In this document: positions 5,363-19,922 of the stretch, piece by piece
Numbering within the stretch: the first letter of the stretch is position 1
How the letters are laid out: every line of letters begins with the position of its first letter
From: Acidobacteriota bacterium
Lineage (GTDB): Bacteria > Acidobacteriota > UBA6911
Length of the DNA: 33,601 bases
Assembly: GCA_003225335.1 (NCBI GenBank)
Contig: QHZE01000419.1
Coordinates: 1-33,601, forward strand
Reading direction: 5' to 3'
Notes under the pieces: model-generated
Told to the model about the DNA's origin: nothing
Database searches by the model: none
Seen by the model: the letters and a program-made list of their open reading frames with translations, nothing else
Position numbers and translations under genes: made by a program

Positions 5363-7355
<1,993 letters not shown>

Positions 7356-9960: not shown

Positions 9961-10028
9961 GATTGACGATTTACGATTGACGATTTGGAAATTGTCAATC
10001 GTCAATCGTAAATCGTCAATCGTCAATT
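9961..10028. repeat. Heptamer-unit hairpin (GATTGAC type) abutting the smc stop codon
   Basis: The left arm is GATTGAC, GATTTAC, GATTGAC, GATTTGG (9961-9988). After about five bases the right arm is GTCAATC, GTCAATC, GTAAATC, GTCAATC, GTCAATT (9994-10028). The period is exactly 7 throughout. The right arm runs into the smc TGA (10028-10030), so the smc transcript would fold into a nearly perfect hairpin straight after the stop. Confidence 0.9.
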
Positions 10029-13000
10029 CACAGAGCCCGGAAGTCGACGCTTACGACTTTTGAAACGCCGGGTTCTTCCATGGTCACACCATAGAGAGTG
10101 TTGGCGATCTGCATGGTCTTCTTGTTGTGGGTTATAAGAATGAACTGCGTGTCCTTGCTCAACTCGGTAATGAGCTGGGTGAACCGCAGGACATTTGCGT
10201 CGTCGAGCGGAGCGTCCACTTCGTCCAGGACACAGAACGGGCTGGGTCGATAATGGAATATTGCAATAAGAAGGGCGAGCGCCGTCAGAGCCTTCTCACC
10301 GCCGGAGAGCAGCAGCACGCTTTGCAAGCGCTTGCCCGGAGGTTGGGCGATAATGTCGATGCCGCTTTCCAGCACATCCCCCTCGTCCAGAAGGCGCAGA
10401 TCGCTTTGCCCTCCCTTGAACAACATCTGAAAGACATCGATGAAATTCTCCCGGATCCTTGTGAACGCCTCTTGAAATTGCTCGATGGATCTTCGGTTTA
10501 TCTCCGCAATTGCTTTCTGCGTGTCGGCAATCGACTTTTCGATGTCGGCCCGCTGCTTGCCCTGGAACTGGTAGCGTTCCTCCAGTTCCTGGTACTCCTC
10601 GAGGGCTCTCATATTGACCGCGCCAAAATGGTCCAGCCGATCGCGGAACTGATCGTGCTGCTGGCAGACCTCGTCATAGTCTCGTTGCCAGTCCCCTTCC
10701 GGGATCTGGCTGATCATATCGGAAAGCGGAACATGATACTCCACCTCGCAGAGACGGGACAGATGATCGAGATCGTTGTCGAGACGAGTCTTTTCGATTT
10801 CGATTCTGCTCCGCGACTCCATCGCAGCTTCTCGCTCGCCATGGAGCTGGCCCACGCTTTCTTCGATCGCGGCGAGCGCCTGCCTTTCGCCGCTTAACTG
10901 CTGTTGCCTCTCGGAAACAGCGATCTCCGCAAGCTGGAGATCCCGGGCCAGACCCGCGAGGCGTTCCTCAGCATCGCGCTGCTCGCGCTCCAGCACTTCG
11001 GACAAGGCCAGAATGCTTTCGCTTTCGTGTTCCATGGCTCCGATTCGCGCCTGCACCTCGGATTCGTCTCGTAGAAGACGGTTCAATTCCGACTCCGAGC
11101 TCGACTTCCGTTCCTGCCGGGCCGCCTGGGCCACAGAGAGCGACGCCAGCTGCTTCGAAAGCGCGAGGGTGTCGGCTTTCAGGGAATCCAGCTGCAAACC
11201 GAGGTCGCGCAACTCCTGCTCGCCGCTACGGCTGGCTACTTCAATTTCTTCGATATCGGCCGCCGCTTCCTTCATCTTCAATTCGAGATCCTGCTTCTCC
11301 GCCAACAACTGCGACAGTTCAGCGCTGGTGACGTTCTCGGTCTGGTCGAGCTTCTGAATCTCCGACTCCAGGCGGCCGATGAAATGATGCAGTCCCACAG
11401 CCTCCATTTCAAGCCGGCGCATTTCCGCGGAAGAGGTTTTGAGCGATTCCTCGATGCCGGACTGCTCTTCTTTAAGCCGCGCCAGCCGCTCCCGGGCCAC
11501 GTGAATTTTTCCACGAAGGGCTTCAAGCCTGACTTCCAATTCCCGCTTCTCACGTTTCAGGGCGAGGAACCCTGCCATGGCTTTGCGCTCCCCTACCGCG
11601 GACAGAGTCCCGCGAGGGGAGTAGGATTCGCCGCCCAAAGTGAGGAAGCTGATTCCCTCGGCTGTTTCGGCGGCACGGAAGGCGGTAGGGAGATCGGTGA
11701 CCATCACCGTGGAGGCAAACTCGGGCAGCGCGCGTTCAAAGGCGTGCCGGACATCTTCCTGCATGCGCAAGAGATCATCCAGGTAGCCGATGATCCCGTC
11801 TCCGGACAGGCAGGGCCGCGGAACCGAGCGGCCGTTGGCGCGTGCGTCGCGCAGAGCGAGGAAGGTGCACTTGCCGGCTCCAATTTGTTTGAGCCGCTCC
11901 ACATTGTGGACCGCCTCCTCAAGGCCCTCGACCAGAATGTACTGGAGGGGATCGTCAAGATAGCTTTCGATCGCGGCCTCGTACCGAGGATCGGTTTCAA
12001 CGTAGTCTGCGAGAGTATGGGCCGGCGCGAATTCCTCTCCGGGCAGGTGCGTGGAGAGGAATTTCTGCACCCCTTCGGAGTAGTTGCTCCGCCTTCGCTC
12101 CACCTCCTCCAGAGAAGAGTACCGGTGCTGCATAAGGCTGTGCTCCTCCTGGATCTCCACAATCTCGTTGGAAACCTGCTCGATGCTCTGAGCCAGCGCG
12201 GCGGCGCGGCGCTCCGCCTCCTCGTGAGCTGCGGCCATTGCCCGCTGACCTAGCGCGTTCGTCTCCCCCTGCTCTTTCAGCCCGGAAAGTTGAGACAGAA
12301 GATTCGCGCGTTCCTGCAGGCCGCTCGCGCGCTCCTCCAGCAACCGGCCGGAGCGAGCCTCGATGCGTTGCGAGTTTTCCTGGCAGCGCCACTGAAGATT
12401 TCTCAAGTCCGACAGTCTTCCAGCACCGTTCAGGAGCGAAGAACGCAGCTCTTCCATCCGGCCTTCCGTCTGCTCTATCGAGACAACGAGGAGCTCGCTG
12501 CGCTCCTGTTCCTGCTCCACCACCTTCTGTTCGCGCTCGATCTCCTCGATGAGGCGCCGCAGCGCGAGCTCGAGACCCTTCCTTTCCTTAGCGATCCCAT
12601 GCGCGCGCCCTTCATCGGCGTTGCGGGCACGGTGGATATCTTGAAGACGCCTGCCTAGTTCCGTCTTCTGATTCTCCTGGCGTTGACGCAGGCTGCTCGC
12701 GCGCTCCACATCGAGTTTGAGGCTCGCGAGATTCTCGCGTTCGCGGTTTAGAAGTTCTTCCTGCTGGAGGCAGGCTTCCCGGCGCAGCACGCGGGCCTGA
12801 TCGAGCCGCGCAAGCTCCGCCAGAAGCGCCTGCTCCTGCTCTTGCGCAGATCTCAGGCGCTCGGAACAAAGCCCCAATTTTTGCTGGAGCTGCCTCTGCT
12901 CCATTGCCAGTTTCAGCTTGTGCAGGCCGCGCATTTCCTCACGCAGGCGGCCGTACCGCCGGGCCTTGGCAGCCTGGCGTTTGAGGGATTCGAGCTGTCG

Positions 13001-13615
13001 CTCCAGCTCGCGAATAATGTCGTTCACCCGTAGAAGGTTGTGCTGCGCGAGCTCCAGCTTCGTCTCTGCCGAATAGCGCCGGGCCTTGAACAAGGTAATC
13101 CGCGCCGCTTCCTCAATCAGGCTCCTGCGGTCGGCAGGTTTCGAGCTGAGAATCTGTCCGATCCGGCCCTGCTCGATAAGCGCATAGGAGTTCGGCCCCA
13201 GGCCGCTCCCTTCAAAGAGCGCCTGAATATCCCGCAGTCGACAACGACGGCCGTCCAGCTGATATTCGCTCTCGCCGGAACGATAGAGCACACGCCCTAC
13301 GGTGAAACCCTCCGGGCTCAACTCCAGGCCTTCGGGCACCTGGAGGCTTTCCGGCAAACGGAGCGTCAGAATAACCTGGGCCATGCTGGTGGCTTTGCGC
13401 GTCTGGGTGCCGTTGAAGATCACCCCCTCCATCCTGTCGGTACGCAGGATTTTCGCGCTCTGCTCGCCTACGACCCAGCTAATCGCATCGGCAATGTTGC
13501 TCTTGCCGCAACCATTCGGGCCAACAATAGCTGTAGTTCCTTCGTCGAAAATCAGCTCCGTGCGGTCGCAGAAGGATTTGAACCCTACGAGATCCAACTT
13601 CTGAATCTGCTGCAT
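10028..13615 (-). CDS. smc: Chromosome segregation protein SMC
   Basis: This is the ATPase that compacts and segregates the chromosome together with ScpA/ScpB. The 1195 residues match the family. Order: N-terminal ATPase head with Walker A GPNGCGKSN (about 32-40) and FKSF near residue 12; a long heptad-rich coiled coil; the hinge around 500-680 (GEEFAPAHTLADYVETDPRYEAAIES... FLTLGGESYSPRG); a second coiled coil; then the C-terminal head with LSGGEKALTALALL from 1103 and Walker B VLDEVDAPLD with D1131/E1132. The ATG at 13615 lies 3 bp after the stop of the alpha/beta-hydrolase gene, with AGG overlapping that stop, so the two are coupled. ScpA and ScpB are not in this window. Confidence 0.97.
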   Translation of the reverse strand: MQQIQKLDLVGFKSFCDRTELIFDEGTTAIVGPNGCGKSNIADAISWVVGEQSAKILRTDRMEGVIFNGTQTRKATSMAQVILTLRLPESLQVPEGLELSPEGFTVGRVLYRSGESEYQLDGRRCRLRDIQALFEGSGLGPNSYALIEQGRIGQILSSKPADRRSLIEEAARITLFKARRYSAETKLELAQHNLLRVNDIIRELERQLESLKRQAAKARRYGRLREEMRGLHKLKLAMEQRQLQQKLGLCSERLRSAQEQEQALLAELARLDQARVLRREACLQQEELLNRERENLASLKLDVERASSLRQRQENQKTELGRRLQDIHRARNADEGRAHGIAKERKGLELALRRLIEEIEREQKVVEQEQERSELLVVSIEQTEGRMEELRSSLLNGAGRLSDLRNLQWRCQENSQRIEARSGRLLEERASGLQERANLLSQLSGLKEQGETNALGQRAMAAAHEEAERRAAALAQSIEQVSNEIVEIQEEHSLMQHRYSSLEEVERRRSNYSEGVQKFLSTHLPGEEFAPAHTLADYVETDPRYEAAIESYLDDPLQYILVEGLEEAVHNVERLKQIGAGKCTFLALRDARANGRSVPRPCLSGDGIIGYLDDLLRMQEDVRHAFERALPEFASTVMVTDLPTAFRAAETAEGISFLTLGGESYSPRGTLSAVGERKAMAGFLALKREKRELEVRLEALRGKIHVARERLARLKEEQSGIEESLKTSSAEMRRLEMEAVGLHHFIGRLESEIQKLDQTENVTSAELSQLLAEKQDLELKMKEAAADIEEIEVASRSGEQELRDLGLQLDSLKADTLALSKQLASLSVAQAARQERKSSSESELNRLLRDESEVQARIGAMEHESESILALSEVLEREQRDAEERLAGLARDLQLAEIAVSERQQQLSGERQALAAIEESVGQLHGEREAAMESRSRIEIEKTRLDNDLDHLSRLCEVEYHVPLSDMISQIPEGDWQRDYDEVCQQHDQFRDRLDHFGAVNMRALEEYQELEERYQFQGKQRADIEKSIADTQKAIAEINRRSIEQFQEAFTRIRENFIDVFQMLFKGGQSDLRLLDEGDVLESGIDIIAQPPGKRLQSVLLLSGGEKALTALALLIAIFHYRPSPFCVLDEVDAPLDDANVLRFTQLITELSKDTQFILITHNKKTMQIANTLYGVTMEEPGVSKVVSVDFRAL

Positions 13616-13618
13616 CCC

Positions 13619-14563
13619 TTACCTTGGCTCTCGCGGGGGGATCGGATTCAAGGGGAGATTGGACATAAAGAAGTTCGCGACATGACGGTTGTAATCCTTG
13701 AGGCTCTCTGCAGTCATTACATGCGCGCGCGCTCCGGGAAGAAAGAGCATCTCTTTCTGCGGTTGCAGCCGGGAATAGAGCCGGGTTACCAGCGGAGCGA
13801 TCTCCGGCCGGTTTTCCCCCTGGATGAACAATATGTTGCGATCTGACAGCGACTCCACCGGGATCTGTGCATTGAACGAGCCTTTCGAATCTATCATATA
13901 GAGTCTGAACGCCTGCCACATTGCAAGAGCCAGAAGCCGGTTGTCCGAGCCCAATTCTTCGCGCATCTTCACCGCAAGAAAGTCAAAGATCCTGTCATAG
14001 GGCGAATCTGCAGCAATGGCGCGCACTTGACTTCGCGCCGCTCCCACCATCAAAGCGGCTCGCGCGCCTATGTCCACCCCCCATATCCCCGCGCGCTCGC
14101 GGTTGACGCCCGGGCGAGCCAGCAGGAAATCCAGCGCCGCCTGCATGTCGTCCGTTTCCAACAATCCCAGCGTGCTTTTTCTCTCAGTCGCCGCGCCGCA
14201 CCCGCGCTGCTCGTAGATCAGAAGATGGAAGCCATTCTCCCTTAGAAGGAGCGCAAGACTCAGAGCATCCGCCCGGTTCATGCCATACCCGGGCGCAAGA
14301 ATTATCCCTGGCGCATTATCACTGGCGCCGGCGATCCACCAACCGGCAAACTCCGTCCCGTCCGTGGATGTCCACCTGACGTCCTGCGCGGGAAGAAGAA
14401 AAAGCGAGGGATTTGCCGACTCCTGAGCGGGAGCCGGATGCGTAATACGATAGACACTCAGGCCGAGAAAAACCGCCAGACCTGCCAGAAGAATCAGCAC
14501 GCCCGGGAGGACCACCCAAAGAAACTTCTTTAGTCTAACTTGCGCCGGAACCTTACGCCGCAT
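13619..14563 (-). CDS. Membrane-anchored alpha/beta-hydrolase with Asp at the nucleophile position
   Basis: This is a 314-residue protein. An N-terminal anchor (about 14-40, very hydrophobic) is followed by an alpha/beta-hydrolase core: PGIILAPGYGMNRADAL (85-101), HLLIYEQRGCGAA (oxyanion and turn region), the nucleophile elbow IWGVDIGARAALMVG (160-174), ILFIQGENRPEIAP (244-257) and GARAHVMTAES with H281. The usual elbow is G-x-S-x-G; here it reads GVDIG with Asp164 (codon GAC). The usual acid position after the ILFIxG strand has E250/N251. Either this uses an Asp nucleophile, as dehalogenases and epoxide hydrolases do, or it has lost classical esterase activity. The closest general family is the BAAT/DUF-type extracytoplasmic hydrolases. 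It precedes smc by 3 bp. Confidence 0.82.
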   Translation of the reverse strand: MRRKVPAQVRLKKFLWVVLPGVLILLAGLAVFLGLSVYRITHPAPAQESANPSLFLLPAQDVRWTSTDGTEFAGWWIAGASDNAPGIILAPGYGMNRADALSLALLLRENGFHLLIYEQRGCGAATERKSTLGLLETDDMQAALDFLLARPGVNRERAGIWGVDIGARAALMVGAARSQVRAIAADSPYDRIFDFLAVKMREELGSDNRLLALAMWQAFRLYMIDSKGSFNAQIPVESLSDRNILFIQGENRPEIAPLVTRLYSRLQPQKEMLFLPGARAHVMTAESLKDYNRHVANFFMSNLPLNPIPPREPR

Positions 14564-14616
14564 CTGAACCTGCCTTAGACTAAACTATCTGTTTCCCTGC
14601 AATAAACGGCGCCCAC

Positions 14617-14690
14617 TATACCACGGATGATTCGGGAATCACCAAGAATCATCGAATTAACTAACCCAAGATATCGTGGTTCGCGTGATT
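14617..14690. repeat. Degenerate inverted repeat between mobA and the hydrolase gene
   Basis: TACCACGGATGATTCGGG at the left and ATATCGTGGTTCGCGTGATT at the right pair imperfectly through CCACGGAT/ATCGTGG and GAATCAC/GTGATTC. The units resemble the ACGGAT/GAATC octamer remnants at 8769-8810. It lies about 40 bp from the mobA stop. I read it as an eroded octamer-type hairpin. Confidence 0.4.
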
Positions 14691-14728
14691 CTGTCTACCA
14701 CATATTGTGACACTGCCGGAGAATCTTC

Positions 14729-15325
14729 CTAGAACAGGCCGAAATTCTCCAAATCCTCCGGGGAGTTAAGGTTACACAAGTCGCCTGTCTGGAACATACC
14801 CTCTTCCGGACCGAGGAGTCGAACCTGCAGCGATCCTTCGTCAAAGATCCCAGTCATCTTGTTGACCCCTGACAAAAGGTTTTTTTCTATGGCGGGGAGG
14901 CATGTCTTCCGATAGAGCCCGCATAGCGGGTGGAAACGACCATCCGCAGTTCGGGGAATAACAGCGTCGGAATCTCCAAGGTTCGCGACGAGGTTTCGAA
15001 GCAGTGGTTCACCAACGCGCGGCAAATCGCAGGCAAGCAGGAGGACGAGTGGACGGCCGGTGTGTCGCATTCCGGAATGCAGGCCCGCCAGTGGTCCTTG
15101 GCCCTGGTAGACATCCTGAATTACGGGAAGGCCAAGAAACTCGTACTTGAATTGGTCGTTGGCAGAGATCCAGATCTCGTCTGTGATCATGCGGACCCGA
15201 TCCACAATTGTGCCGATCAGAGACCGCCCTTGGAGAACAAGTAAGGCTTTGTCTGTTCCCATCCGGCGACTGTTCCCACCTGCGAGGATGACCGCGCTCA
15301 GATCCGGGATCCGGAGAACGGACAT
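14729..15325 (-). CDS. mobA: Molybdenum cofactor guanylyltransferase
   Basis: This enzyme attaches GMP from GTP to molybdopterin to give the guanine-dinucleotide cofactor. The 198 residues match the family. The nucleotide-binding signature VILAGGNSRRMGTDKALL occupies about 12-29. LVLLLACDLPRVGEPLL (the metal-binding Asp in ACDLP) and DAVIPRTADGRFHPLCGLYRK are characteristic. The C-terminus contains DLCNLNSPEDLE, the usual NTPEDL-type motif. No molybdoenzyme or other moa/moe gene is nearby, so the client is unknown. The ATG at 15325 has AGG about 6 bases upstream. The gene diverges from the S55-like gene. Confidence 0.93.
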   Translation of the reverse strand: MSVLRIPDLSAVILAGGNSRRMGTDKALLVLQGRSLIGTIVDRVRMITDEIWISANDQFKYEFLGLPVIQDVYQGQGPLAGLHSGMRHTGRPLVLLLACDLPRVGEPLLRNLVANLGDSDAVIPRTADGRFHPLCGLYRKTCLPAIEKNLLSGVNKMTGIFDEGSLQVRLLGPEEGMFQTGDLCNLNSPEDLENFGLF

Positions 15326-15404: not shown

Positions 15405-15513
15405 GAACACGGCTATCTTCGGAGCTCAGCCTTTGGCCCGCTTGCAGATCGAACTCGGACGGCAGCCTAAAGGCTGAACTCCAAATCTCATCTGTGTTCA
15501 TCGGTGGTTTCAT
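15405..15513. repeat. Nested inverted repeat in the mobA/S55 divergent gap
   Basis: GGAGCTCAGCCTTTGG (15421-15436) pairs with CCTAAAGGCTGAACTCC (15466-15482). An outer pair GAACAC (15405-15410) and GTGTTC (15494-15499) encloses it. The right flank, TGTGTTCATCGGTGGTTTC, is shared almost exactly with the element between nuoG and nuoH (30638-30706), including a trailing TCTAG. So this is a dispersed repeat with a different inner hairpin. Confidence 0.6.
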
Positions 15514-15554
15514 CATAGTCTAGGTTCGTGAGATTCGTCGTGGCGCGGTGCGGC

Positions 15555-15584: not shown

Positions 15585-15613
15585 TCCATCTTTACCGAGG
15601 AAAGGTTGGAAAA

Positions 15614-17443
15614 ATGACGCGAAGGCGGCTCCTCATCGCGGCGGCTGTTGCGGTGCTTTGCGTATCACCGAATGCCTGGCCGCGCCAGGAGTTCTTCCCT
15701 GTGGAGGAATTACGACCTGGCATGAAGGGAACCGGCAGAACCTGTTACCAGGGGAGCGCGCCTGAGGAGTTTCAGGTAGAAATACTTGGCGTGCTCCGGG
15801 GCGTCGGACCGGGCGCGGACGCCGTGCTGGCACGCTTGAGCGGGGGGCCGCTGGAAAAAACCGGGGTCTTCGAGGGAATGAGTGGAAGTCCGGTTTTCAT
15901 TGATGGAAAGCTCCTCGGAGCTGTGGCCTTCTCTTTTCAATTTCCCAAGGAAGCGATCGGCGGCATCACGCCCATACGTCAGATGGTGGATGCATTCAAA
16001 GAGCAGCCGATAGAAAGCGGATCCGCCAGCGGGGGAAAAGTTCTCAAGAAGAGCATGCTTTGGAACTACCAGTTACAGCCTCCCGATGCGGCTTTGAACG
16101 ACTATGGATTGTGGGCGAACCCAAGCGACACACGCGCGCAGACTGCGCTGGCGGCCTTCCCCGGTCATGCTCTCGTTCCCATCGCGACTCCTCTGAATCT
16201 CGCCGGTTTTAGCCCTAAAGCGCTTCAGGTTTTCACGCCGCATCTGCGCAATCTCGGCCTCACCGCTCTCCAGGGCTCCGGCGCGCGGGCAAGCACAGGC
16301 AATACACCGCCTCTTGAGCCCGGCTCCAACATCGTCGTGCCTCTCGTGCGCGGGGACATGGACGTCGCCGCGGGCGGGACTGTCACGTATATTGAGGGTA
16401 ACAAGGTCTACGCCTTCGGGCATCCTCTTTTCAATCTGGGTTTCGCGGAATTGCCGATGCACAAGGGGCGGGCTATCACCGTGTTTCCCAGTCTGCAAAG
16501 TTCCTTCAAGGTCCTCGAAACCACAGAACCCGTAGGGACGATCCGCCAGGACAGAGGCTCCGGAATCTTTGGCATTCTCGGCGAGAAAGCGAAAATGATC
16601 CCGATCAACGTCCGGCTTGCAACGAGCCGCGGTGTCAAGAAGACTCTGAAATACGAAATCGCCCGAGACAGGTTTCTGACGCCGTTCCTTGTCAATTTCA
16701 CCGTCTTCAACAGCATCATCTCTTCCGAACGGGGTTTGGGTGTGTCCACGGTGGAACTGAAGGGGAAGATCAACATCAAAGGAGAACAGCCGGTCGAGAT
16801 TGAAAACCGGTTTTCTTCTGAAAGCAACTCGCCCGTAATCGCTTCGCTTTCGATCGCCGTACCCGTGAGTTTTCTGCTGTCCTCCGGGTATAAAAACCTC
16901 GAGTTCGAAAATATCGATCTCGACATTGCGGCGGTTGAAGATGATCGGGCTGCGGTACTCGACTCGGTCCGCTTGGACCGGCCGGAGCTCAAGGCGGGTG
17001 AAGCGCTCAATCTGGATCTTTTCTACAGAAAGACCGATGGAGAGGTCGTACAGGATTCCTACCCGGTCAGAATCCCCCCCGACGTGACGCCGGGACCGAT
17101 CCATATGCTGATCGCGGACGGGACGAGCTTGATGTCCATGGACGCGCGGGAGCAGGGAGAAGACTTCATCCCGCGGGATTTGAGCCAACTGATCAAGTTC
17201 ATCAACAACCTCAGGAAAAACGACCGTTTGTACATACGAATCTTCCGGCGCGAGGCGGGAGCTGTAGTCAAAGGAGAAGGGCTCCCTGGCCTCCCTCCGT
17301 CCGTCCTTTCGATACTCAGATCCAATCGCAACGCGGGAGGGATGAACCCGATCCAGACCTCAACTTTCATGGAGTACGAACTGCCGCCCTCTGACTATGT
17401 TATAGCGGGCTCGAAGATTCTCACACTCCAGATCAAACCCTGA
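15614..17443 (+). CDS. Exported S55/SpoIVB-peptidase-like protein, permuted domain order
   Basis: The protein is 609 residues. A signal peptide (RRRLLIAAAVAVLCVSPNAWP, about 3-23) is followed by ELRPGMKGTGRTCYQG, EEFQVEILGVL, and the S55 serine motif EGMSGSPVFIDGKLLGAV (87-104). A second block follows about 150 residues later: GGTVTYIEGNKVYAFGHPLF with H270, then GSGIFGILGEKAKMIPINV. In SpoIVB the GH block precedes the GMSGSP block; here the order is swapped. The remaining 300 residues are beta-rich and unassigned. Peptidase activity is not assured, since no Asp sits where SpoIVB has its catalytic Asp; D69 is the nearest. The start at 15614 is supported by GAGGAAAGG, the signal peptide and the promoter; the open frame from 15548 is rejected. 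Confidence 0.8.
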   Translation: MTRRRLLIAAAVAVLCVSPNAWPRQEFFPVEELRPGMKGTGRTCYQGSAPEEFQVEILGVLRGVGPGADAVLARLSGGPLEKTGVFEGMSGSPVFIDGKLLGAVAFSFQFPKEAIGGITPIRQMVDAFKEQPIESGSASGGKVLKKSMLWNYQLQPPDAALNDYGLWANPSDTRAQTALAAFPGHALVPIATPLNLAGFSPKALQVFTPHLRNLGLTALQGSGARASTGNTPPLEPGSNIVVPLVRGDMDVAAGGTVTYIEGNKVYAFGHPLFNLGFAELPMHKGRAITVFPSLQSSFKVLETTEPVGTIRQDRGSGIFGILGEKAKMIPINVRLATSRGVKKTLKYEIARDRFLTPFLVNFTVFNSIISSERGLGVSTVELKGKINIKGEQPVEIENRFSSESNSPVIASLSIAVPVSFLLSSGYKNLEFENIDLDIAAVEDDRAAVLDSVRLDRPELKAGEALNLDLFYRKTDGEVVQDSYPVRIPPDVTPGPIHMLIADGTSLMSMDAREQGEDFIPRDLSQLIKFINNLRKNDRLYIRIFRREAGAVVKGEGLPGLPPSVLSILRSNRNAGGMNPIQTSTFMEYELPPSDYVIAGSKILTLQIKP

Positions 17444-17474
17444 TTTTGCCAAATGGCAAATGACTTATGGAAAA

Positions 17475-17565
17475 CGCTTCGTGATTCTTCGCGTCTTCGT
17501 GTCTTCGTGGTGGATTGGGGACAGGCTTTACCACGAAGGCGCGAAGACGCGAAGAATCGCCAAGT
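17475..17565. repeat. Octamer-unit hairpin between the S55-like and propeller genes
   Basis: The left arm has GATTCTTC, GCGTCTTC, GTGTCTTC, GTGG (17483-17510). The right arm is the inverse, CACGAAGG, CGCGAAGA, CGCGAAGA, ATCGCCAAG (17532-17564). Just upstream, TTTGCCAAATGGCAAATGAC (17446-17465) looks like one arm of a heptamer element without its partner. The right arm ends about 22 bp before the start codon of the propeller gene, so it may sequester or insulate that start. Confidence 0.8.
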
Positions 17566-17587
17566 TTTTGGTTGCGGCTGAGCACGC

Positions 17588-19822
17588 ATGAGATACAAAG
17601 TCATCCTTGTCCTGATCGTCTGCCTGGCCGTATCGATTACAGCGACGGCGGTCACCCCTCAATTCTGGGAGAACTTCACACAAGAAGAGTTGCTGAAAGG
17701 AACTCTCACGCGGGTTTCCCTGAGCTCCGACGGAAAGCTCTTTCTCGCACCTCCGTACGATCTGTTTTACGACACCGGCCAGCCGTACGTCTTCTCGGTA
17801 GCTCGCGACAGGTCCGGAAACCTCTACGTTGGGACAGGACACGAGGGAAAGGTTTTCAAGGTGGACCCGCAAGGAAAGGGTAGTGTCTACTTCCAGGCCA
17901 AAGAGCTGGACGTATTTGCACTGGCGCTGGATTCCTCCGATGTCCTTTATGTGGGCACCTCGCCGGACGGAAAAGTTTACAAGGTCACGGCCCCCAACCA
18001 GGCGACCGAGTTCTGCAACCCCGAAGACAAATATATCTGGTCGCTCCTCTTTGACGAGGCGGGCAATCTCTATGTGGGCTCGGGAGCGCGCGGGATCATC
18101 TACAAAGTCGACAAGAGTGGTAAGAAATCGACTTTCTACGACAGCGACGACACACACATCGTGTCACTGGCGCGCGAAAGCAACGGAAATGTGCTGGCAG
18201 GGACTTCACCGGGAGGCACGGTGCTGCAGATCAACCCGCAGGGGAGGGCCTTCACGCTTCTGGACTCCCCGATGGAAGAGATCCGCGCTCTTGCGGTGGA
18301 CCGCTTCGGGACCATCTATGCGGTCGCTTCAAGTTCCAAAGGTCTGGTACCACCAGCCCCGCCCAAGACCGAGCCCACAACTGAAGCGACGAGCGAGGCG
18401 CTGCCTCTTGTGACGATCCAGGCGCTGACCAGTCTTGCCGAAAAGTCCAAAGAGTCCAGGTCCTCCGTGTCGGCTCCAGGGGGCGAGAAGGATTCGGCAG
18501 GTTCCAAGTCCTCAATTTACGCGCTGTCCAAAGATGGGAGCGTGGAAACCCTTTTCACTTCTCGGGACCAGATGATCTACGACCTACTCGTGCGCCCCGA
18601 CGGCAGCGTGCTGGCCGCGGCCGGCGGCAAGGGCAGAATTCTCTCGATCGATACCGCGAAGCAGGTGTCGGTCATCACCGATTCCCCGGAAGAGCAGATC
18701 ACGCGGCTGCTTCTCTCCGGCGACGAGATATTTGCTGCGGGCAGCAACCAGGGGAGAATTTACCGGCTCCAGTCTCAGAGAGCCCAGACCGGCACTTTCG
18801 AGTCCAAGGTACTGGACGCCAAGACCGTGGCGTCCTGGGGCAAGATAGCCTGGGTCGTGACCAATGCCAGCGGTGGAACAGTGGAGACGGTTTCGCGCTC
18901 CGGGAACACAGAGAAACCCGACAGCTCCTGGAGCGACTGGAGCACGCCCTATACTGAGTCTGAAGGTCAGCAGATTACCAGTCCCAAGGCGCGCTACTTT
19001 CAATGGAGGGCAACCTTCAAACGTGGACGTTCCCAAACCGCCGGCGCGCCCTCCGATGTTTTCGAGCGCGTCAGGATTGCGTACTTGCAGCAGAATCTCC
19101 GTCCTCAAGTTACCAGCATTAATCTCCTGCCCCCGGGCATCACGCTGCAGAAGATTCCTTCCCTCCCTTCCGGGACGATCGGTCTCGGCAGCTCAGGAAC
19201 GGACGGCGCTCCCGTCAGCTCTCCCCGCGAACGAGGAAAAGACAAACAGACGCTGCCACCGCGCCAGGTAGCACAACCGGGAGCTCAGGCATTTTCGTGG
19301 AAAGCGACGGATGACAACGAGGATACCCTGGAGTATTCGATTTACTTCAGAGGAGAGGGAGAAACCGACTGGAAACTGCTCGAAAAGAACGTCAACGACA
19401 CCTTCTATACTCTCGAAAGTGGCGCGCTTCCCGATGGCGTATACACGCTTAAGGTCGTAGCCAGCGATGCCCCGTCGAACCCGTACGGGAAAGCCCTGAT
19501 CGGCGAACTGGTTTCCAAGCCTTTCGTCATCAACAACAGCACCCCTCTGGTCGAGATCGCACAACATAAGATCACCGGCAAGAAAGTGGATCTGCAGTTT
19601 CGCGCGCGCGTCGCCACAGGGCGAATTGCCAGCGGAGAGTTCTCGATCGACGGAGGCGAATGGTTTCTGGTTTTTCCCGTGGATGGGATCGCCGATTCTG
19701 CGCAGGAAGAGTTTCAGGTGACCACACCGGAGCTCACGACCGGCGAGCATTCCATCGGCCTGCGCGCAGGAGACACGGCCGGAAACACAGGCTCCGCAAA
19801 ACTCGTCGTAAGAATTCCCTGA
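17588..19822 (+). CDS. Exported beta-propeller protein with C-terminal Ig-like region
   Basis: The protein is 744 residues with a clear signal peptide (MRYKVILVLIVCLAVSITATA). Residues of about 50-380 are built from repeating blades with the pattern LYVGTGxxGKVFKVD: LYVGTGHEGKVFKVD, LYVGTSPDGKVYKVT, LYVGSGARGIIYKVD, VLAGTSPGGTVLQIN, then a low-complexity Pro/Thr/Ser linker (about 255-305) and further blades. The C-terminal third has FSWKATDDNEDTLEYSIYFR and LPDGVYTLKVVASD, typical of fibronectin/Ig-like beta-sandwiches. Residues of about 420-510 (WSDWSTPY... ARYFQWRATFKRG) look like a carbohydrate-binding or discoidin-like insert. No catalytic motif is visible. It may bind an envelope or extracellular ligand. 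No good Shine-Dalgarno precedes the ATG; the signal peptide fixes the start. Confidence 0.78.
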   Translation: MRYKVILVLIVCLAVSITATAVTPQFWENFTQEELLKGTLTRVSLSSDGKLFLAPPYDLFYDTGQPYVFSVARDRSGNLYVGTGHEGKVFKVDPQGKGSVYFQAKELDVFALALDSSDVLYVGTSPDGKVYKVTAPNQATEFCNPEDKYIWSLLFDEAGNLYVGSGARGIIYKVDKSGKKSTFYDSDDTHIVSLARESNGNVLAGTSPGGTVLQINPQGRAFTLLDSPMEEIRALAVDRFGTIYAVASSSKGLVPPAPPKTEPTTEATSEALPLVTIQALTSLAEKSKESRSSVSAPGGEKDSAGSKSSIYALSKDGSVETLFTSRDQMIYDLLVRPDGSVLAAAGGKGRILSIDTAKQVSVITDSPEEQITRLLLSGDEIFAAGSNQGRIYRLQSQRAQTGTFESKVLDAKTVASWGKIAWVVTNASGGTVETVSRSGNTEKPDSSWSDWSTPYTESEGQQITSPKARYFQWRATFKRGRSQTAGAPSDVFERVRIAYLQQNLRPQVTSINLLPPGITLQKIPSLPSGTIGLGSSGTDGAPVSSPRERGKDKQTLPPRQVAQPGAQAFSWKATDDNEDTLEYSIYFRGEGETDWKLLEKNVNDTFYTLESGALPDGVYTLKVVASDAPSNPYGKALIGELVSKPFVINNSTPLVEIAQHKITGKKVDLQFRARVATGRIASGEFSIDGGEWFLVFPVDGIADSAQEEFQVTTPELTTGEHSIGLRAGDTAGNTGSAKLVVRIP

Positions 19823-19922
19823 TTGCGGATTTGGGATTGCGGATTGCGGATTAAATTCAACCAATACGCAAGGAGCAGTCAGATTCTCAATCCGCAATCC
19901 GCAATCCGAAATCCGCAATCCT
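19821..19922. repeat. Heptamer-unit hairpin (GATTGCG type) shared by two convergent 3' ends
   Basis: The left arm is GATTGCG, GATTTGG, GATTGCG, GATTGCG, GATTAAA (19821-19855), starting inside the TGA of the propeller gene. The right arm is CAATCCG, CAATCCG, CAATCCG, AAATCCG, CAATCCT (19888-19922), which encodes the last residues and the stop codon of the minus-strand pseudouridine synthase. The spacer is 32 bp. Confidence 0.9.

Follow-up and report, generated by a model that had tools for sequence, protein, structure and literature searches.

The window (the whole 33,601-nucleotide stretch of DNA analyzed here) carries a gene for a putative exported protease related to SpoIVB (MEROPS S55) and, directly downstream, a gene for a beta-propeller protein, with a palindromic repeat between them (Table 1). 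The sequence GAGGAAAGG at 15597-15605 lies ahead of the protease start codon (ATG 15614), and an alternative in-frame GTG start upstream at 15548 is possible. Upstream of the protease, positions 10028-15325 of the minus strand hold SMC-like (assigned from sequence only), alpha/beta hydrolase and MobA-like genes. An interspersed repeat different from the palindrome, TCTGTGTTCATCNGTGGTTT at 15491-15510, has 287 copies in the genome at up to 1 mismatch, compared to 0 for the reversed control.

In the translated protein, the block starting with EEFQVEIL begins at residue 51, GMSGSPVFIDGKLLGAV spans residues 88-104 and includes Ser90, GGTVTYIEGNKVYAFGHPLF spans residues 254-273 and includes His270, and GSGIFGILGEKAKMIPI spans residues 315-331. 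The protein had initially been annotated as exported, which inspection of the signal-like N-terminal sequence supports. An AlphaFold model of the full protein gave pLDDT 89.7 and pTM 0.89, with the linker region varying in confidence: of the five blocks spanning 131-180, four had pLDDT 51-64, and 191-220 had 91-95. The C-terminal domain of this model matched complement C3 MG domains at a middling Z of 5.5 over ~72 aligned residues, and a Pfam scan of the 609 residues for PDZ gave no match at E <= 10.

Table 1. Features of the protease and propeller genes (positions in the window)
Feature	Residues	Position	Strand	Basis
Permuted S55-like protease gene (P0001)	609 aa	15614..17443	+	single open frame
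Putative Sec signal peptide	1-23	15614..15682	+	RRR n-region and hydrophobic stretch (inspection); predicted helix 2-16
Ser barrel (second barrel of S55, first here)	25-132	15686..16009	+	PF05580, hhalign, 9lnf alignment
Ser90 codon, putative nucleophile (SpoIVB Ser378)	90	15881..15883	+	conservation
Inter-barrel linker with conserved PIATPL..SGF stretch (consensus)	133-234	16010..16315	+	
His barrel (first barrel of S55, second here)	235-323	16316..16582	+	hhalign, fragment model, 9lnf alignment
Asp248 codon, near-invariant	248	16355..16357	+	conservation
His270 codon, putative general base (SpoIVB His236)	270	16421..16423	+	conservation
Asp313 codon, proposed third catalytic residue (SpoIVB Asn290 position)	313	16550..16552	+	conservation, hhalign
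C-terminal Ig/MG2-like domain	446-609	16949..17440	+	structural matches
Palindromic interspersed repeat between the two genes		17472..17569	.	40-nt arms, 85% complementary
Beta-propeller and Ig-like protein, signal-like N-terminus	744 aa	17588..19822	+	Pfam

Distribution and gene neighborhood

Relatives of the protease were found at E <= 1e-5 in 281 of 297 Acidobacteriota genomes, including the window's own; restricting the count to the better assemblies gives 248 of 257. The 16 genomes without a match, nine of them at least 90% complete, also gave none in a family-profile search, and no SpoIVB scored above the TIGR02860 cut-off in any of the 297. Searching genome contigs with the single protein returned no relative; an alignment-based search returned at least 595, of which 80 were taken, and Acidobacteriota group names (Aminicenantes counted in) stood on all 80 listed loci but L108, L130, L160 and L169. 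Viral contigs held no match for one SpoIVB or for the permuted family, and plasmids held none for the permuted family. A weak match to residues 18-108 (31%, E 7e-4) occurs at 6083-6358 of the phage record MT835614.1, an unannotated 'Bacteriophage sp.' from human faeces that is perhaps a Firmicute SpoIVB contig. A passage of one earlier paper reports wide detection of S55 among acidobacteria (PMC8841776). Titles and abstract openings of the open-licence literature yielded nothing on a permuted S55 or trypsin-fold protease.

A family set of 161 sequences was assembled from 84 better-scoring Acidobacteriota genome matches, among the matches listed, and 77 pattern-fetched sequences (from 77 of the 80 listed loci). 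L001 and L002 (the window itself) and the truncated L025 were left out before the 84 were counted. From the remaining matching genomes, beyond these 84, we took 27 divergent members. Six of the 77 repeat proteins already present, such that the 161 rows amount to 155 distinct sequences and the 188 rows with divergent members to 182.

Of 149 loci across the phylum whose downstream flank reaches 900 bases or more, 129 have the propeller gene as the same-strand downstream neighbor, or 123 of 143 distinct loci after merging repeats. In eight genomes checked, the window's own and seven that failed this neighbor test, the propeller was present once each; among the seven it lay elsewhere in the genome in five and ~2 kb downstream of the protease in G074, and G037 has it next to the protease but encoded on the opposite strand. 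MobA-like genes were near only 24 loci and alpha/beta hydrolase genes near 27, counts that include several loci with little flank. Reg_prop, SBBP and Big_7 score above their Pfam cut-offs in the propeller protein, with Big_13 just below. This recurrent pairing suggests that the propeller protein is most likely a partner or substrate of the protease. Co-transcription of the two genes is not assured, as the palindrome (ACCACGAAG...CGCGAAG) lies between them; its arm motif has 258 genomic copies at up to 1 mismatch, and its reversed control has 0. At the other end of the propeller gene, 19821-19900 holds direct and inverted repeats (GATTGCGGATT) that overlap the end of a pseudouridine synthase gene.

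Order of the two SpoIVB halves

The initial annotation described SpoIVB as having its His block first and its Ser block last, and proposed a circular permutation from the reversed order here. Three Firmicute SpoIVBs from plasmid-labelled records have this order, the His half following PDZ and preceding the Ser half. Pfam PF05580 runs through them end to end, from position 2 to 209 or 210; the B. subtilis sequence of structure 9lnf is collinear with one of the three. In the native 609-residue protein, PF05580 matched residues 45-108 (33.4 bits, gathering cut-off 25) and only positions 129-194 of the 210 in the profile. All 78 members of family set A2 matched PF05580 at E <= 0.01. The SpoIVB equivalog model TIGR02860 reached 29 bits, below its cut-off of 305, and the nearest solved structure by sequence was the Ser part of SpoIVB 9lnf (E 0.02, or 3e-8 with the family profile).

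Both halves were recovered, in swapped order, when profiles of four SpoIVBs and the 161 family members were compared with hhalign. The SpoIVB Ser half aligned to family residues 43-132 (E 1e-13, probability 98) and the His half to residues 251-323 (E 7.6e-5, probability 62). When the family was split and the His half compared to residues 180-609, the score was 35.1 (E 7e-5), compared to at most 20.3 in 100 column shuffles, and each SpoIVB half matched only its own counterpart, cross pairs being no better than E 0.036. Against the unsplit family the His half was weaker (score 29.9, E 9e-4, probability 23), and a second match near the Ser block (E 0.008) is probably spurious. Pairing strand 239-247 with the SpoIVB pre-PDZ strand (Pro108 onward), as in a PDZ-less barrel, raised the hhalign score from 35.1 to 44.1; this candidate was set aside as only suggestive, since shuffling the strand 50 times gave 44.1 at least once.

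Swapping the blocks in silico restored continuity. The swapped 609-residue protein gave one PF05580 match over profile positions 17-194 (42.2 bits), and the match became one piece in all four sequences scanned, a non-random choice made up of the window's protein plus three taken from the top four of the 161 by swapped score. With a four-sequence SpoIVB HMM, the swapped order outscored the natural order in 149 of 161 members, by a mean of 2.1 bits. Its mean gain was 5.0 bits both over a shuffled His block, which it outscored in 160 members, and over a reversed one, which it outscored in 159. One domain extended over more than 150 positions in only 8 of the 161 swapped sequences, compared to 0 of 161 in both the order control and the shuffle control. 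A shorter sequence accounts for part of the bit gain; we regard the lengthening of the PF05580 match as the stronger point. Single-sequence HMMs are weak on the His block because it is too diverged: by itself it was matched to PF05580 in 3 of 75 family members (best E 0.054), and a PDB search with the His-block profile found no convincing relative (best E 0.53, unrelated).

Putative catalytic residues across the family

Ser90, His270 and Asp313 were invariant in all 84 sequences from the genome searches and in all 161 once pattern-fetched sequences were added. Divergent members kept Ser90 in 26 of the 26 that hold this stretch (one further member is without it), and both His270 and Asp313 in 27 of 27, making the three residues invariant wherever present in 182 distinct sequences. 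One of the two patterns used to fetch the 77 sequences includes GMSGSPV, which biases Ser90 conservation among those 77 but not that of His270 or Asp313. The retention of Ser90 and His270 noted at the outset thus extends to the whole family, and examining nearby aspartates brought out Asp313 as an additional invariant residue; Asp248 is D in 160 of 161 members and 26 of 27 divergent ones. Strands 298-314 and 317-322 of the model are the fifth and sixth of the barrel, and Asp313 lies at the end of the former, presumably where chymotrypsin Asp102 is expected in the fold. Profile alignment pairs Asp313 with SpoIVB Asn290, and we propose it as the third catalytic residue.

The initial annotation also observed that the Asp expected 15 residues before the Ser is missing, and suggested that activity may be altered or lost. 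Its observation stands: residues 75-77 are most often L, S and G, and no Asp is conserved at the SpoIVB Asp363 position, residue 76 being mostly S, E, T or K (S in 93 of 161). The Thr393 position is not kept either, residue 105 being Ala, Ser or Gly. Its suggestion of altered or lost activity is not supported. According to a passage of the SpoIVB crystal paper, Asp363 lies ~24 A from His236 and its catalytic role is doubted (PMC12502668). Together with the invariance of Ser90, His270 and Asp313, this distance removes the missing Asp as an argument for lost function, and the equivalent of Asp363 is probably not catalytic.

The absence of the Asp363 and Thr393 positions would also fit a catalytically dead relative that retained the permuted S55 fold as a binding or scaffold module. 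Dead enzyme relatives usually lose at least one catalytic residue, but Ser90, His270 and Asp313 are invariant in all examined sequences that hold them, the most divergent included, and we consider this explanation improbable. As judged from sequence, loss of activity in the permuted family is unlikely, and active-site residues kept across Acidobacteriota point to what seems a working enzyme with a rearranged chain rather than a decayed one.

Predicted folds and interpretation

In structural comparisons, Foldseek returned nothing at E <= 0.001 for the full model, and each of the best 23 VIA rows, which align from residues 24-26 on, carried the title of a clan PA protease or a protease-fold protein. 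The Ser barrel (25-132) aligned to 9lnf 312-424 (Z 5.9, rmsd 3.0, 105 aligned, 22% identity), and to the second barrel of DegQ/DegP at Z up to 6.9 and 12-14% identity. The His-barrel fragment 228-350, modelled alone, gave a confident fold (pLDDT 92.3). For this fragment Foldseek also returned nothing at E <= 0.001, its top rows not being proteases, and the best 23 VIA rows were trypsin-fold proteases (Z 8.5 to 6.0). By residue numbers these rows fall mostly on C-terminal barrels of other proteases, so that a barrel fold is better supported than its assignment to one of the two barrels. The His barrel aligned to 9lnf 108-301 (Z 5.2, rmsd 3.3, 86 aligned, 26% identity). Thus each predicted barrel, superposed singly, aligns with clan PA barrels and with the matching part of 9lnf at middling Z, and the predicted folds agree with the profile comparison and block swapping in supporting the permutation proposed initially.

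The same arrangement might have arisen without permutation by descent, if the half-domains were assembled independently through barrel shuffling or through tandem duplication and partial loss. Such an origin is compatible with the length and divergence of the linker and with the additional C-terminal domain, and duplication followed by trimming is a usual route to permutation. The split comparisons argue against it, as they reveal no Ser block repeated downstream of the His block and no His block upstream of the Ser block (best E 0.036 for each) and thus no trace of a tandem-duplication remnant; moreover, both halves are S55-like, and every one of the 188 sequences has this order, apart from one without a Ser block. 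We judge independent assembly unlikely. That only the GMSGSP block is S55-like, with the GTVTY...GHP...GIFG block a chance resemblance in an unrelated barrel, would match the weak single-sequence HMM support and the non-protease Foldseek rows, but was already disfavored and appears very improbable given the margin of the His-half profile score over its shuffles, the continuous PF05580 match after swapping in four of four sequences, and the 26% identity to 9lnf over 86 residues.

We are fairly confident that the gene encodes a probably exported and probably active chymotrypsin-fold protease related to S55 in which the two barrels are circularly permuted. The chain of this permuted protease would begin with the Ser barrel and continue through a ~100-residue linker joining the former ends to the His barrel, with a Ser-His-Asp active site where the two barrels meet. 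With the Ser barrel first, the catalytic order would be Ser90-His270-Asp313, not His-Asp-Ser. Sec would export the protease, and an envelope protein would be cleaved. A broader reading can be held only tentatively: the proteins may be a near-universal, one-phylum family of natural Ser-His-Asp permuted proteases that forms a core envelope proteolysis system with the propeller, and the third S55 catalytic residue may lie at the Asn290 position.

A phylum-wide natural permutation of a two-barrel serine protease would indicate that such a fold can be reconnected during evolution, and would account for the partial annotation of such proteins by domain models. It also bears on the open question of which residue completes the SpoIVB catalytic site, because in this family Ser and His are retained although Asp363 and Thr393 are not, and the Asn290 position is always Asp. 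For the function of the gene pair in Acidobacteriota, the propeller neighbor is a concrete lead.

Acidobacterial proteins annotated as 'SpoIVB peptidase (S55)' are probably the same family as the permuted protein, and the passage describing them contains no mention of permutation, catalytic analysis or a partner (PMC8841776). HtrA/Deg and other clan PA chymotrypsin-fold proteases have a two-barrel fold as predicted here, whereas the permuted protein differs in its rearranged chain, lack of PDZ and 12-14% identity in the DegQ/DegP rows. Compared to SpoIVB (PF05580, 9lnf), the permuted protein runs Ser to His instead of His to Ser, lacks the PDZ found in three SpoIVBs, has Asp in place of Asn290 and no equivalent of Asp363 or Thr393, and adds a C-terminal Ig-like domain. 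The two nevertheless share a signal-like N-terminus and homology in both halves, with the equivalents of Ser378 and His236 invariant.
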